Assembly: GCA_902596325.1 (NCBI GenBank)
Contig: CACJTN010000002.1
Span: forward strand, 1-64,000
Direction: 5' to 3'
DNA from: an uncultured Pelagibacteraceae bacterium
GTDB taxonomy: Bacteria; Pseudomonadota; Alphaproteobacteria; Pelagibacterales; Pelagibacteraceae
DNA: 64,000 bases
Shown: one piece after another, positions 6,694 to 14,388 of the stretch
Position numbering within the stretch: position 1 is the first letter of the stretch
Layout of the letters: every line of letters begins with the position of its first letter
Notes under the pieces: generated by a model
What the model was told of the DNA's origin: nothing
Seen by the model: the letters and a program-made list of their open reading frames with translations, nothing else
The model's database searches: none
Made by a program: the position numbers and the translations under genes

Positions 6694-8190
6694 ATGAAGT
6701 TATTTTTTATACTTGGAAATCAATTATTTCCACCAAAATACCTAGATCGCTACAAAAATGATCACCTATTTTTCATGGCAGAGGATCTAGAGCTTTGCAC
6801 GTACGAGAAGCACCATAAGCTTAAAATATTACTATTTTTATCCTCTATGAGATCCCATTCAGATGAATTAAAAAAAAATAAACTTAAAATAGAATATTCA
6901 GATATCGAGAATAAAGAGTTCGGTAAAAGTTATACAGAAAAATTAAAAAAAATTATTAAATCAAAAAAAATAAACGAGGTAACAAGTTTTGAAGTTGAGG
7001 ATAAATTTTTTGAAATCAAACTAACTAAATTTTTTAACAGTATAAACGTTAAATGGAATGTTATTAAAACACCAATGTTTCTTAATTCTCGTCAAGAGTT
7101 TGATGCATATTTAAATAAAAATAAAAAACCATTTATGGCAACATTTTATAAAGAAACTAGAAAAAAAATGAATATTCTAATGGCAAAAGATGGAACACCA
7201 GTGGGTGGTAAATGGAGTTTCGATGAGGACAACAGAAATAAATTACCCAAAAATATTTCTATACCTAAATTTCCAAAAATTAATGAGACCAAACATACTG
7301 TAGCTTTAAAAAAAATAGTTGAAAAAAAATTTCCAAAACATCCAGGTAGTGTAGATAATTTTTGGTTAGCTACGACTCATAAAGATGTTGTTAAGCTATT
7401 AGATTTTTTTATTAAGGAAAAGTCAAATTTGTTTGGAGATTATGAGGATGCGGTTGATCAAAAAGATAATATATTATTTCATAGCGCACTAAGTCCATAT
7501 ATTAATCTTGGTTTAATTACTCCGGAATTTGTTATTGATAGAATTTTAACCCATCACAAGAAAAATAAAATAAGACTAAACTCATTAGAAGGATACATAA
7601 GACAAGTAATTGGTTGGAGAGAATTCATGAGGGGAATTTATAGGGGTTATAATAAAGAGATGGAAACACGAAATTTCTTTAAACAAAATAGAAAAATGAA
7701 AAGTTCGTGGTATGAAGGTAATACGGGTTTACCACCATTAGACTATGCAATTAAAAATGCTCTAACACACGGATGGTCACACCACATTGAGAGATTAATG
7801 ATATTAGCTAACATTATGAACCTTTGTGAAATCAAACCTATCTATGTTTATAAATGGTTTATGGAAATGTTTGTAGATTCATCTGACTGGGTAATGGTTC
7901 CCAATGTTTATGGTATGGGATTATTTAGTGATGGTGGAATTTTTGCAACTAAACCCTATATATGTGGATCAAGTTATTTTATGAAAATGATGGATTTTAA
8001 AAAAGGTGAGTGGTGTAATATTATGGATGGTCTTTATTGGAGGTTTATAAATAGAAACAGATCCTTCTTCTTGAAAAATCCTAGATTATCAATGATGGTT
8101 CGTATCTTAGATAAAATGAAACAAGACAGAAAAAAACTAATTTTTTCTGCAGCTGACAAATTTATTAAGGAGAATACTAATGTCAGTTAA
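6694..8190 (+). CDS. Cryptochrome/photolyase-related protein (PhrB/FeS-BCP-like superfamily)
   Basis: FILGNQLFPP N-terminus; EGYIRQVIGWREFMRGIY, HGWSHHIERLMILANIMNLCEI, WVMVPNVYGMGLFSDGG, GLYWRFINRNR. Confidence 0.9.
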   Translation: MKLFFILGNQLFPPKYLDRYKNDHLFFMAEDLELCTYEKHHKLKILLFLSSMRSHSDELKKNKLKIEYSDIENKEFGKSYTEKLKKIIKSKKINEVTSFEVEDKFFEIKLTKFFNSINVKWNVIKTPMFLNSRQEFDAYLNKNKKPFMATFYKETRKKMNILMAKDGTPVGGKWSFDEDNRNKLPKNISIPKFPKINETKHTVALKKIVEKKFPKHPGSVDNFWLATTHKDVVKLLDFFIKEKSNLFGDYEDAVDQKDNILFHSALSPYINLGLITPEFVIDRILTHHKKNKIRLNSLEGYIRQVIGWREFMRGIYRGYNKEMETRNFFKQNRKMKSSWYEGNTGLPPLDYAIKNALTHGWSHHIERLMILANIMNLCEIKPIYVYKWFMEMFVDSSDWVMVPNVYGMGLFSDGGIFATKPYICGSSYFMKMMDFKKGEWCNIMDGLYWRFINRNRSFFLKNPRLSMMVRILDKMKQDRKKLIFSAADKFIKENTNVS

Positions 8191-8530
8191 AGTTTTTTTT
8201 AATAACTCATGTAAGATTTGTAAAATGGAGATTGATCACTACAAAAAATATTCAGATAATTCATTAGATTGGGTAGACATAACAAATAATGATGAGGCGA
8301 TTTCATTGACATCAAAAACTCAAGCTGAGCTTTTAAGAAGACTTCATGTTATCCATGATGGAAAAGTAATTGGTGGGGCAAAAGCATTTTTAATTATTTG
8401 GTCGAGTATTCCGAAATACAATTTTTTATATAAAATCTTAAGTAAAAAACCACTATTTATATTATTTCATTACGCATATGAGATTGCTGCCTATTTTTTA
8501 TTTTTAAAAAATAAACATCAGTTAAAATGA
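8180..8530 (+). CDS. DCC family (DUF393) thiol-disulfide oxidoreductase-like protein
   Basis: VFFNNSCKICKMEIDHYKK with CxxC, then GKVIGGAKAFLIIW; overlaps the upstream gene by 11 bp. Confidence 0.82.
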   Translation: MSVKVFFNNSCKICKMEIDHYKKYSDNSLDWVDITNNDEAISLTSKTQAELLRRLHVIHDGKVIGGAKAFLIIWSSIPKYNFLYKILSKKPLFILFHYAYEIAAYFLFLKNKHQLK

Positions 8531-11360: not shown

Positions 11361-12062
11361 ATGAAACTCTTGTTAAATTTTTTAAAATTGATTCCAATTT
11401 TTTTATTAACTTTAACTTTTTCAAACATTTCTATATCTGCTGAAAAAAATTATTATAAAGATTTAGTTACAGATTGGTCTAGGATCTTTCCAGACAATAA
11501 TAGAAACGCTGCAGGTCCAAAATTTTTTAAGTATATAATTGATAAAGATATTACTTATAATGATTTTGTTGAATACAACAAACTATACTGTGCTGTATCT
11601 GGATCACTAATTGATCCTAATAGCACCGCTGAGTTTGTAAATATAAGTGAGGAAAAAACCGGAAAACAAATTTGTGGAAATTATTATAGATGTTGTGTTC
11701 CCTGTTCATGTGATTTGATGAAATATACGACGGTTCAAAAAATGAAGCATAAGTTTAAAGATGGATTAAAAGAATTTTATGTTCTTACAATTAATAATCC
11801 TTGTACAAAAAAAGATTTTCCTGAAAGGGTAACAAAAAAATATTTCTGTGATGGTAGTAATATTTCAAAAGATCAAGTTTATAATCTAGATGGACGAATG
11901 GTCATTGGTTTGTTTCATAATACAAAACCATGTAATGATAATGACATAAAAATTGTGAAAGCTCATCCTGTCACTGGAGAATACTGTGATATCAGAAACA
12001 ATACTCCTTTAGAAAAATTACAAGCTGGAATGGGAGATATATTTATAAAACTTGCTAGGTAA
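11361..12062 (+). CDS. Cysteine-rich secreted protein of unknown function
   Basis: Signal peptide (LIPIFLLTLTFSNISISA) and cluster ICGNYYRCCVPCSCDLMKY plus further Cys. Confidence 0.65.
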   Translation: MKLLLNFLKLIPIFLLTLTFSNISISAEKNYYKDLVTDWSRIFPDNNRNAAGPKFFKYIIDKDITYNDFVEYNKLYCAVSGSLIDPNSTAEFVNISEEKTGKQICGNYYRCCVPCSCDLMKYTTVQKMKHKFKDGLKEFYVLTINNPCTKKDFPERVTKKYFCDGSNISKDQVYNLDGRMVIGLFHNTKPCNDNDIKIVKAHPVTGEYCDIRNNTPLEKLQAGMGDIFIKLAR

Positions 12063-13197
12063 ACTTAGCAATTATCTTAGGTATATAAGTTTTAAAATTA
12101 AAAAAACCTTTATTACAAAATTGCCAAGAAAATTGATCTAATTTTCTATAAATAAATTTATAATTACTTAAGTTAGACATAACAAAATCCAAATTTTCTC
12201 CAACACATGGATAAAGAATATAAAAATCGCTTTTAATTTCTTTTAATTTATCAACTGAAACAATTTCGCAATTAATTGACAAACTCTCAATTCTTTCAAG
12301 TTGGTCATTAATTAATTCAGATTTAAATTTTATAACATTATCACTTAGTTTGACTTGTCTAAATTCATTTGAGTTAACTACTAAAATTATTTTATTAAAT
12401 TTAAATTCTTTTAAATTTGAAATTTCAAATGACAAACTATTTTCAAAAATAATAAGAGTTTTATCTTCATTTATTGTTGGATTAATAAAATCATTCTTAA
12501 TAATTGAATAAGTTTTATCGGCCATTTTGGGAGGTGCATTTTCATTTAATTTTATATTTTGAAACCTATTATTAGTAAATTTTTTTATGTTCCATTCTGA
12601 TGCTAAGTAATGTTTACCTTGTGTTTGAATACCAGCAACCCATCTCCAACCCAATGTGTTTGAAGCTGCATCTCCATCATAAAGATGCTTTAAAAAAAAT
12701 TCTGCTCCTAATTGCCAAGGTAAATCAAGTGTGAAAATCCATATACTAGCAAACCACATTCTCGTATGATTGTGTAAGTAATTGTGTGTTTTCAATTCTT
12801 TAACCCACTCATCAAAACATTCAATATTAGTTTTTCCTTCTATAGCTCTTAGGTAATTGATATTCTCTTTATATTTTTCTCTTATGCTGTTTAAGCTAAT
12901 TATATAATCACTCCAAACGGAGGGTCTCAACTCTAACCATCCTTTCCAATAAGTTCTCCAAAGTACTTCTTGAATAAATTTTTCATTTTTATTAAAGGAA
13001 TATTTTGCTAGTGATTTTTTAATAATTTCAACTTCGTTTAGAACCCCATGAGTTATATATGGGGACAGACAAGAAACATTACTACGTTTATCAGGTCCAA
13101 AATCAAAATTCCTCAATTTTGAATAGTCTGATAAGTTTCTTTCAACAAATCTATCTAAATTTTCAATGGCTTTCGCCCTAGTTGTCTCAAAATTCAT
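12055..13197 (-). CDS. Photolyase-type FAD-binding domain protein with FAD domain at the N-terminus
   Basis: FQEVLWRTYWKGWLEL-type region (FIQEVLWRTYWKGWLELRPSVW), HNYLHNHTRMWFASIWIFTLDLPWQLGAEFFLKHLYDGDAASNTLGWRWVAGIQTQGKHY within residues ~1-240; different ~140-aa C-terminus. Confidence 0.8.
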   Translation of the reverse strand: MNFETTRAKAIENLDRFVERNLSDYSKLRNFDFGPDKRSNVSCLSPYITHGVLNEVEIIKKSLAKYSFNKNEKFIQEVLWRTYWKGWLELRPSVWSDYIISLNSIREKYKENINYLRAIEGKTNIECFDEWVKELKTHNYLHNHTRMWFASIWIFTLDLPWQLGAEFFLKHLYDGDAASNTLGWRWVAGIQTQGKHYLASEWNIKKFTNNRFQNIKLNENAPPKMADKTYSIIKNDFINPTINEDKTLIIFENSLSFEISNLKEFKFNKIILVVNSNEFRQVKLSDNVIKFKSELINDQLERIESLSINCEIVSVDKLKEIKSDFYILYPCVGENLDFVMSNLSNYKFIYRKLDQFSWQFCNKGFFNFKTYIPKIIAKFT

Positions 13198-13203
13198 AAT
13201 TAT

Positions 13204-14388
13204 TTATTTTAGCTTTTTTTTGTTAAAATTAATAAATCTCTCAACGTTTGATTTATTAAATGTTTTATTTTCCTCAAACGAAACTTTTTTCATCGAATAA
13301 GCTTTGCTTTTGGTTTGTCTTGAGTGAATTGTTATATTTCCTTTATAGAGTTTTAATTTTACTGAACCGTTCACTTTATTTCTTTTATCATCAATAACTC
13401 TTTGTAACTTAAATCTTTCTTTTGAAAACCAATATCCATTATAAATTAATTCTGCATATCTTGGCATAACCTCATCTTTTTTATGCATAGTCTTTTTATC
13501 AAGAGTGACGGTCTCTATTGCTCTATGAGCATGAAGTAATAATGTTCCTCCAGGAGTTTCATAAACGCCTCTAGACTTTATTCCTATAAATCTATTTTCA
13601 ACTAGATCAACTCTTCCAATTCCATTTTTACCAGCTAACTGATTAAGTTTTTCTAAAAGTTTAGCAGGAGAAGTTTTTTTTCCATTAATTCCATAAGGAT
13701 CTCCATTTTTAAAATTGATGGTCACAAAACTTGGCTTATTTGGAGCTTTCTCTGGAGATATTGTTCTTTGATATATAAACTCTGGGGCAAAGCTTTTTGG
13801 ATTTTCTAATGCCTTTCCCTCTGTAGAGGTATGAAATAAATTATCGTCAACAGAAAAGGGTGGTGCACCTTTCTTATCTTTAGGGATAGGTATTTTGTTT
13901 TTTTTTGCGTACTTAATCAAATCAGATCTTGAATTCATTGTCCAAATACGCCAAGGGGCAATCACCTTCATTTTTGGCGCAAAATAATAATAACCTAGCT
14001 CAAATCTTACCTGATCATTTCCTTTTCCCGTTGAGCCATGTGATACGGCAAATGCTTTAAATTTCTTTGCAATTCTGACTTGATCTTTAGCAATTAAAGG
14101 TCTTGCAATAGATGTGCCAAGTAAATATGTGCCTTCATACAAAGCATGACCTCTGATCATTGGATAAACGTAGTCCTTTACAAAAACATCCTTTAAATCA
14201 TTAATTATAATATTTTTTACACCAAGTTTTTTTGCATTATTGATAATTTTTTTTTTATCCATTTCCTGACCCACATCAGCTGTGTATGCTATGACTTCTG
14301 CATCGTAATTTTCCTGAAGCCATTTAAGTATAATGGAGGTATCTAGTCCACCAGAGTAGGCTAAAACAATTTTTTTTTTTGATTTCAT
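13204..14388 (-). CDS. argG: Argininosuccinate synthase
   Basis: VLAYSGGLDTSIILKWL, HGSTGKGNDQVRFELGYY, GRVDLVENRFIGIKSRGVYETPGGTLL. Confidence 0.98.
   Translation of the reverse strand: MKSKKKIVLAYSGGLDTSIILKWLQENYDAEVIAYTADVGQEMDKKKIINNAKKLGVKNIIINDLKDVFVKDYVYPMIRGHALYEGTYLLGTSIARPLIAKDQVRIAKKFKAFAVSHGSTGKGNDQVRFELGYYYFAPKMKVIAPWRIWTMNSRSDLIKYAKKNKIPIPKDKKGAPPFSVDDNLFHTSTEGKALENPKSFAPEFIYQRTISPEKAPNKPSFVTINFKNGDPYGINGKKTSPAKLLEKLNQLAGKNGIGRVDLVENRFIGIKSRGVYETPGGTLLLHAHRAIETVTLDKKTMHKKDEVMPRYAELIYNGYWFSKERFKLQRVIDDKRNKVNGSVKLKLYKGNITIHSRQTKSKAYSMKKVSFEENKTFNKSNVERFINFNKKKLK

Follow-up and report, generated by a model that had tools for sequence, protein, structure and literature searches.

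Within the window (the whole 64,000-nucleotide stretch of uncultured Pelagibacteraceae DNA analysed here), we found a gene that very likely encodes a photolyase of the NewPHL class, predicted to split CPDs via FADH-, to shield the FAD cavity with its C-terminal Z-domain and probably to prefer single-stranded DNA. The gene occupies positions 12055..13197 on the (-) strand, has an ATG start and encodes a protein of 380 aa. It was noted that the FAD-first architecture is not novel and that the protein is an ordinary member of a published class. As described in papers that cite the original report, the FAD-first NewPHL class has been known since 2020 (Emmerich et al. 2020 NAR 48:12845), and the title of Xu et al. 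2021, as cited in PMC13274461, points to a novel class of photolyases as possible ancestors. An earlier, sequence-only reading of this gene as a circularly permuted or secondarily assembled photolyase was partly supported and proved half right; the FAD-first order that it described already defines NewPHL.

Domain architecture and class assignment

The reading frame and all of the motifs previously quoted from it were recovered exactly. In the Pfam scan, the protein matched FAD_binding_7 alone (residues 74-198, E=8.8e-17, profile positions 1-127 of 203), with no match to PF00875, the N-terminal antenna domain of class I photolyases, or to PF04244, the N-terminal domain of FeS-BCP (6-4) photolyases. 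Residues 5-197 align with residues 202-395 of E. coli photolyase (1dnp), which make up its FAD domain. No part of the window protein matched anything before the FAD domain in this alignment, and approximately 160-180 residues stand after the matched region. The N-terminal FAD (catalytic) domain comprises residues 1-215 (12553..13197, (-) strand) and is without the last third of the canonical FAD_binding_7 model. It is followed by a linker in which no secondary structure is predicted (residues 216-239; 12481..12552, (-) strand) and by the C-terminal alpha/beta Z-domain (residues 240-380; 12058..12480, (-) strand), to which a shortened antenna-type fold was assigned from the model, Foldseek and profile comparison. 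The motif DxxxWxxxxKGFFxFKxxIPxI, with positions near-invariant in the family alignments, lies within this domain at residues 354-375 (12073..12138, (-) strand).

These features were compared with those of the described photolyase classes. NewPHL/Phr7 proteins have an N-terminal FAD domain and a C-terminal Z-domain (Prochlorococcus Phr7, PMC9426592), the D. shibae NewPHL possesses a "mere Trp dyad" (PMC8948257), and NewPHLs keep the N5 asparagine (PMC12083526). The window protein carries the same combination, with the FAD domain first, a small alpha/beta Z-domain last, no Fe-S cysteines, a Trp dyad replacing the triad and a conserved N5 asparagine. It differs from other NewPHL/SPL photolyases in its low-GC, streamlined, SAR11-like host genome, in its divergent Z-domain and in its length of 380 aa compared to approximately 390-420 aa in most full-length relatives. 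Class I CPD photolyases (E. coli PhrB, Thermus Phr) have the FAD pocket and the CPD-repair residues in common with the window protein but differ in their full-size N-terminal antenna, Trp triad and longer FAD domain. The (6-4) photolyases/FeS-BCP (Agrobacterium PhrB) show a distant kinship in the FAD domain, and their antenna fold is the solved structure nearest to the Z-domain; however, they have the antenna-FAD order, other active-site residues and an antenna domain without sequence similarity to the Z-domain. No full-length relative of the window protein was found in the PDB copy searched.

Fold and probable origin of the C-terminal domain

AlphaFold2 modelling of the full-length protein on the family alignment (pLDDT 92.9, pTM 0.91) placed helices up to residue ~207, followed by a linker and a five-stranded domain in which beta strands and alpha helices alternate; this supports the FAD-first order. 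In the Foldseek search with this model, photolyases and cryptochromes were matched solely by way of the FAD domain, and the C-terminal domain was therefore given a model and a search of its own. It was confidently predicted as an ordered alpha/beta domain (pLDDT 93.6), which supports the Rossmann-like C-terminal part of ~140 aa suggested earlier and speaks against disorder of this region. In the proposed comparison with photolyase alpha/beta domains, the first Foldseek match was the antenna domain of a Caulobacter (6-4) photolyase (probability 1.00), and (6-4) photolyases of Caulobacter, Synechococcus and Agrobacterium were encountered at ranks 1, 4, 5, 13, 14 and 20 (probability 0.98-1.00; query-normalised TM-score 0.52-0.59). 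The E-values were modest, the best being 1.8e-3, with methyltransferases and universal stress proteins close behind. The modelled fold of the C-terminal domain is antenna-like, and a fold by itself is no proof of homology.

The origin of the domain was examined by profile-profile comparison on cleaned alignments, with unrelated alpha/beta domains as controls. The small stand-alone antenna-like domains gave 95-96% probability against canonical antenna domains (E 7e-9 to 2e-8). Against the C-terminal domain of the window family they gave 92-93% (E 3-5e-7), and both alignments extended almost from end to end. In the profile alignment, the "KRFFRYW" that closes the small domains is equivalent to the canonical "VFTPFW" and to "KGFFNFK" of the window protein. 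Compared directly with the canonical antenna, the window domain scored weakly (29-43%), no better than the alpha/beta controls, in which the universal stress protein reached 15-69% depending on its partner and the response regulator matched the universal stress protein at 63%. By this transitive route, the C-terminal domain is probably a shortened antenna domain that was relocated in one piece to follow the FAD domain. Because the domain is colinear with the stand-alone proteins, and these with the canonical antenna from the first strand to "VFTPFW", the rearrangement corresponds to a whole-domain swap, and the term "circularly permuted" was wrong in its strict sense.

It is also conceivable, if unlikely, that an unrelated Rossmann-like domain was recruited to the FAD domain, with the architecture otherwise as described. 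Such recruitment would fit the weak direct comparison, in which a universal-stress-protein control reached 24%, and the Foldseek E-values of ~2e-3 at best with methyltransferases ranking close behind, but it is opposed by both steps of the profile bridge and by the several (6-4) photolyase antenna domains that accompany the top match within the first 20 ranks.

The shortened-antenna origin can be set beside relatives in which the two domains are encoded by separate genes, which provide a route for testing how photolyase domain order changed. In this two-gene form, a FAD-only gene of ~245-295 aa is followed at once by a gene of ~130-175 aa. It was found in alphaproteobacteria (loci L073-L077, including L076:1270-2570 and L077:1273-2615) and in Deinococcus (L083:2357-3648). 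The small Deinococcus partner matched PF00875 weakly (E=2.3e-4), falling short of the Pfam cut-off. In the literature searched, the only two-gene FAD/antenna arrangement found was phr4/phr5 of marine Synechococcus/Cyanobium. Deinococcus plasmids also carry FAD-first fusions of 472 aa (L283:2393-3811) and 457 aa (L284:2315-3688) with a recognisable antenna-type domain last. We lean slightly towards the view that the NewPHL Z-domain is a shrunken antenna, and that intermediates of the domain-order swap survive today in the split operons of alphaproteobacteria and Deinococcus and in the FAD-first fusion proteins of Deinococcus. If true, a rooted test could address the direction of the swap in the photolyase superfamily. 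The modest new element of this analysis is the link from the Z-domain to the stand-alone antenna-like proteins.

Several further features of these loci were observed. C-terminal cysteines were present in L076, L077 and L083 and seemingly missing from L073-L075, and the fused Deinococcus proteins of L283 and L284 are annotated merely as FAD-binding domain-containing protein. A Persicobacter plasmid (L084:2438-5858) carries three consecutive photolyase-family genes, the first FAD-first and fused, the second with a canonical antenna-like start and the third (6-4)-type-like. On a Halorubrum plasmid (L281:1868-3466), a 390-bp "photo-lyase" gene precedes a FAD-binding domain gene, and this pair is either a canonical-order photolyase in two pieces or a broken gene.

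Active-site residues and proposed mechanism

The roles of the E. coli photolyase residues used for mapping are well established. R226, E274, W277, N341 and M345 of the E. coli enzyme map to R29, E77, W80, N143 and M147 of the window protein, R344 and D372 to R146 and D174, and D374, N378, W382 and W359 to D176, N180, W184 and W161. All of these window residues, together with S42 and S45, were conserved in essentially all 42 family rows. N180 is the N5 asparagine. W184, the proximal electron-transfer tryptophan (codon at 12646..12648, (-) strand), forms the Trp dyad with W161, while the third triad tryptophan (E. coli W306) is not conserved in the family and is replaced by K108 in the window protein. 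The FAD part has just two cysteines, C43 and C127, and the cysteine quartet for a [4Fe-4S] cluster was absent. Because the position of E. coli R342 is occupied by His across the whole window family, details of substrate binding may differ from those of the E. coli enzyme.

From this retention of the FAD and CPD residues, we predict that the flavin drives CPD splitting and is photoreduced via the Trp dyad. The N-terminal domain would bind FAD in the usual pocket, into which the CPD would be flipped; light-excited FADH- would give an electron to the CPD, which would be split before the electron returned to the flavin. Photoreduction of the flavin would proceed via two tryptophans (W184, W161) and not three. 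The C-terminal domain of NewPHLs reportedly seals the FAD site, and the alpha/beta domain of the window protein, of a shortened and relocated antenna type, most likely shields the FAD cavity in a role that would not require an antenna pigment. By analogy with characterised NewPHLs, the enzyme probably prefers CPDs in single-stranded DNA.

The loss of repair in favor of a cryptochrome-like light sensor appears improbable. Canonical and (6-4)-type photolyases in the same genome may render repair by the window protein dispensable, yet the CPD-binding acid, the stacking Trp, the Asn, the Met and the N5 Asn are conserved in essentially all family rows, and characterised NewPHLs are reported to be active CPD photolyases (PMC9426592, PMC13274461).

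Distribution and relationships of the family

The survey of the FAD-first order called for by the sequence-only reading recovered matches without internal stops in 37 of the 40 near-complete genomes of the family. Across 398 genomes of the phylum, 37 contained a match at E<=1e-40; 35 of these were full length, and all 35 belonged to the same class. Full-length members aligned with the window protein at 42-72% identity, and conserved motifs were seen throughout an alignment of 29 of them, including the C-terminal DxxxWxxxxKGFFxFKxxIP motif. Relatives were also encountered on plasmids of Ruegeria, Novosphingobium, Peteryoungia, Niveispirillum and Asticcacaulis. Those from Ruegeria, Novosphingobium and Niveispirillum are full length, as are the relatives at 80 further genome loci, which include Rhodobacteraceae, Sphingomonadales, Acetobacteraceae, Microbacteriaceae and some gammaproteobacteria. 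Matches in phages were confined to parts of the FAD domain and never reached 80% query coverage.

The window protein fell into a clade of 42 full-length relatives (support 100/100) in a maximum-likelihood tree of the FAD domain (75 rows); class I, the (6-4) type and the split/Fe-S forms lay outside it. This clade takes in Rhodobacteraceae, sphingomonads, Actinobacteria and others, and full-length relatives from Roseobacteraceae, Methylobacterium, sphingomonads and Azospirillaceae, the groups to which the named NewPHL sequences belong, share it with the window protein. The tree is unrooted and was built without the published NewPHLs A8LJA9 (D. shibae), M7YZC8 (M. mesophilicum), Q2N8F4 and B6IPR5, to which kinship is suggested by architecture, residues and taxonomic neighbours.

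Phr4 and Phr5 (split) and Phr6 (fused) of marine Synechococcus/Cyanobium also place the FAD domain first with a small antenna-type domain behind, but they differ from the window protein in having four Fe-S cysteines and a photolyase domain that can be recognised as such (PMC9426592). It is highly improbable that the window protein is an inverted photolyase of this type. The two groups have the FAD-first order, a related FAD domain and His at the R342 position in common; against such an assignment, the window protein lacks the Cys quartet, has a C-terminal domain that PF00875 fails to detect, and stands on the NewPHL side of the 100/100 branch, with the split forms resembling Phr4 and Phr5 on a separate branch of the tree.

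Between close relatives, dN/dS was 0.07-0.13 in the FAD part and 0.09-0.22 in the C-terminal part, and from these low values both halves of the NewPHL-type protein are maintained by purifying selection. The gene starts 6 bp past the argG stop, with no broken-frame antenna domain upstream. The sole PF00875 domain in the source genome lies in a separate canonical 475-aa photolyase on contig C9, so that no antenna domain was split off from the NewPHL-type gene. The source genome is 64.5% complete, which is of no concern for this point because the upstream neighbour lies inside the window. A frameshifted, mis-assembled or truncated canonical photolyase, a possibility raised in the sequence-only reading, would explain the unrecognisable N-terminal antenna but is ruled out, with a negligible chance of being correct, by the intact orthologues, the selection on both halves and the presence of argG directly upstream with no stray antenna domain nearby.

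Genomic neighbourhood and photorepair context

The immediate upstream neighbour, argG (13204..14388, (-) strand), lies on the same strand across a 6-bp gap, and the two genes are probably cotranscribed. A (6-4)-type bacterial photolyase gene (PF04244 + PF03441 by domain matches) was identified at 6694..8190 on the (+) strand; it is overlapped by a small thiol-disulfide oxidoreductase-like gene at 8180-8530 (+), the product of which begins MSVKVFFNNSCKICKMEI. Within a few kb of the NewPHL gene, a (6-4)-type gene was present at 11 of 30 loci of the family; among 80 named loci, 7 clearly showed this proximity. The pattern suggests a loose clustering of photorepair genes. The co-occurrence with aarF/UbiB or DUF3429 genes that plasmids had shown was not upheld in the 80 named loci. 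PADLOC gave no match for a defence-system role of the window gene.

The source genome encodes the FAD-first photolyase alongside canonical and (6-4)-type photolyases, and almost all members of this streamlined marine lineage, judged to be SAR11-like by its low GC, small genome size and gene content, have the FAD-first enzyme. This near-universality, together with the three photolyase types in one genome, suggests that the repair of CPDs in single-stranded DNA matters for bacteria of the sunlit ocean.
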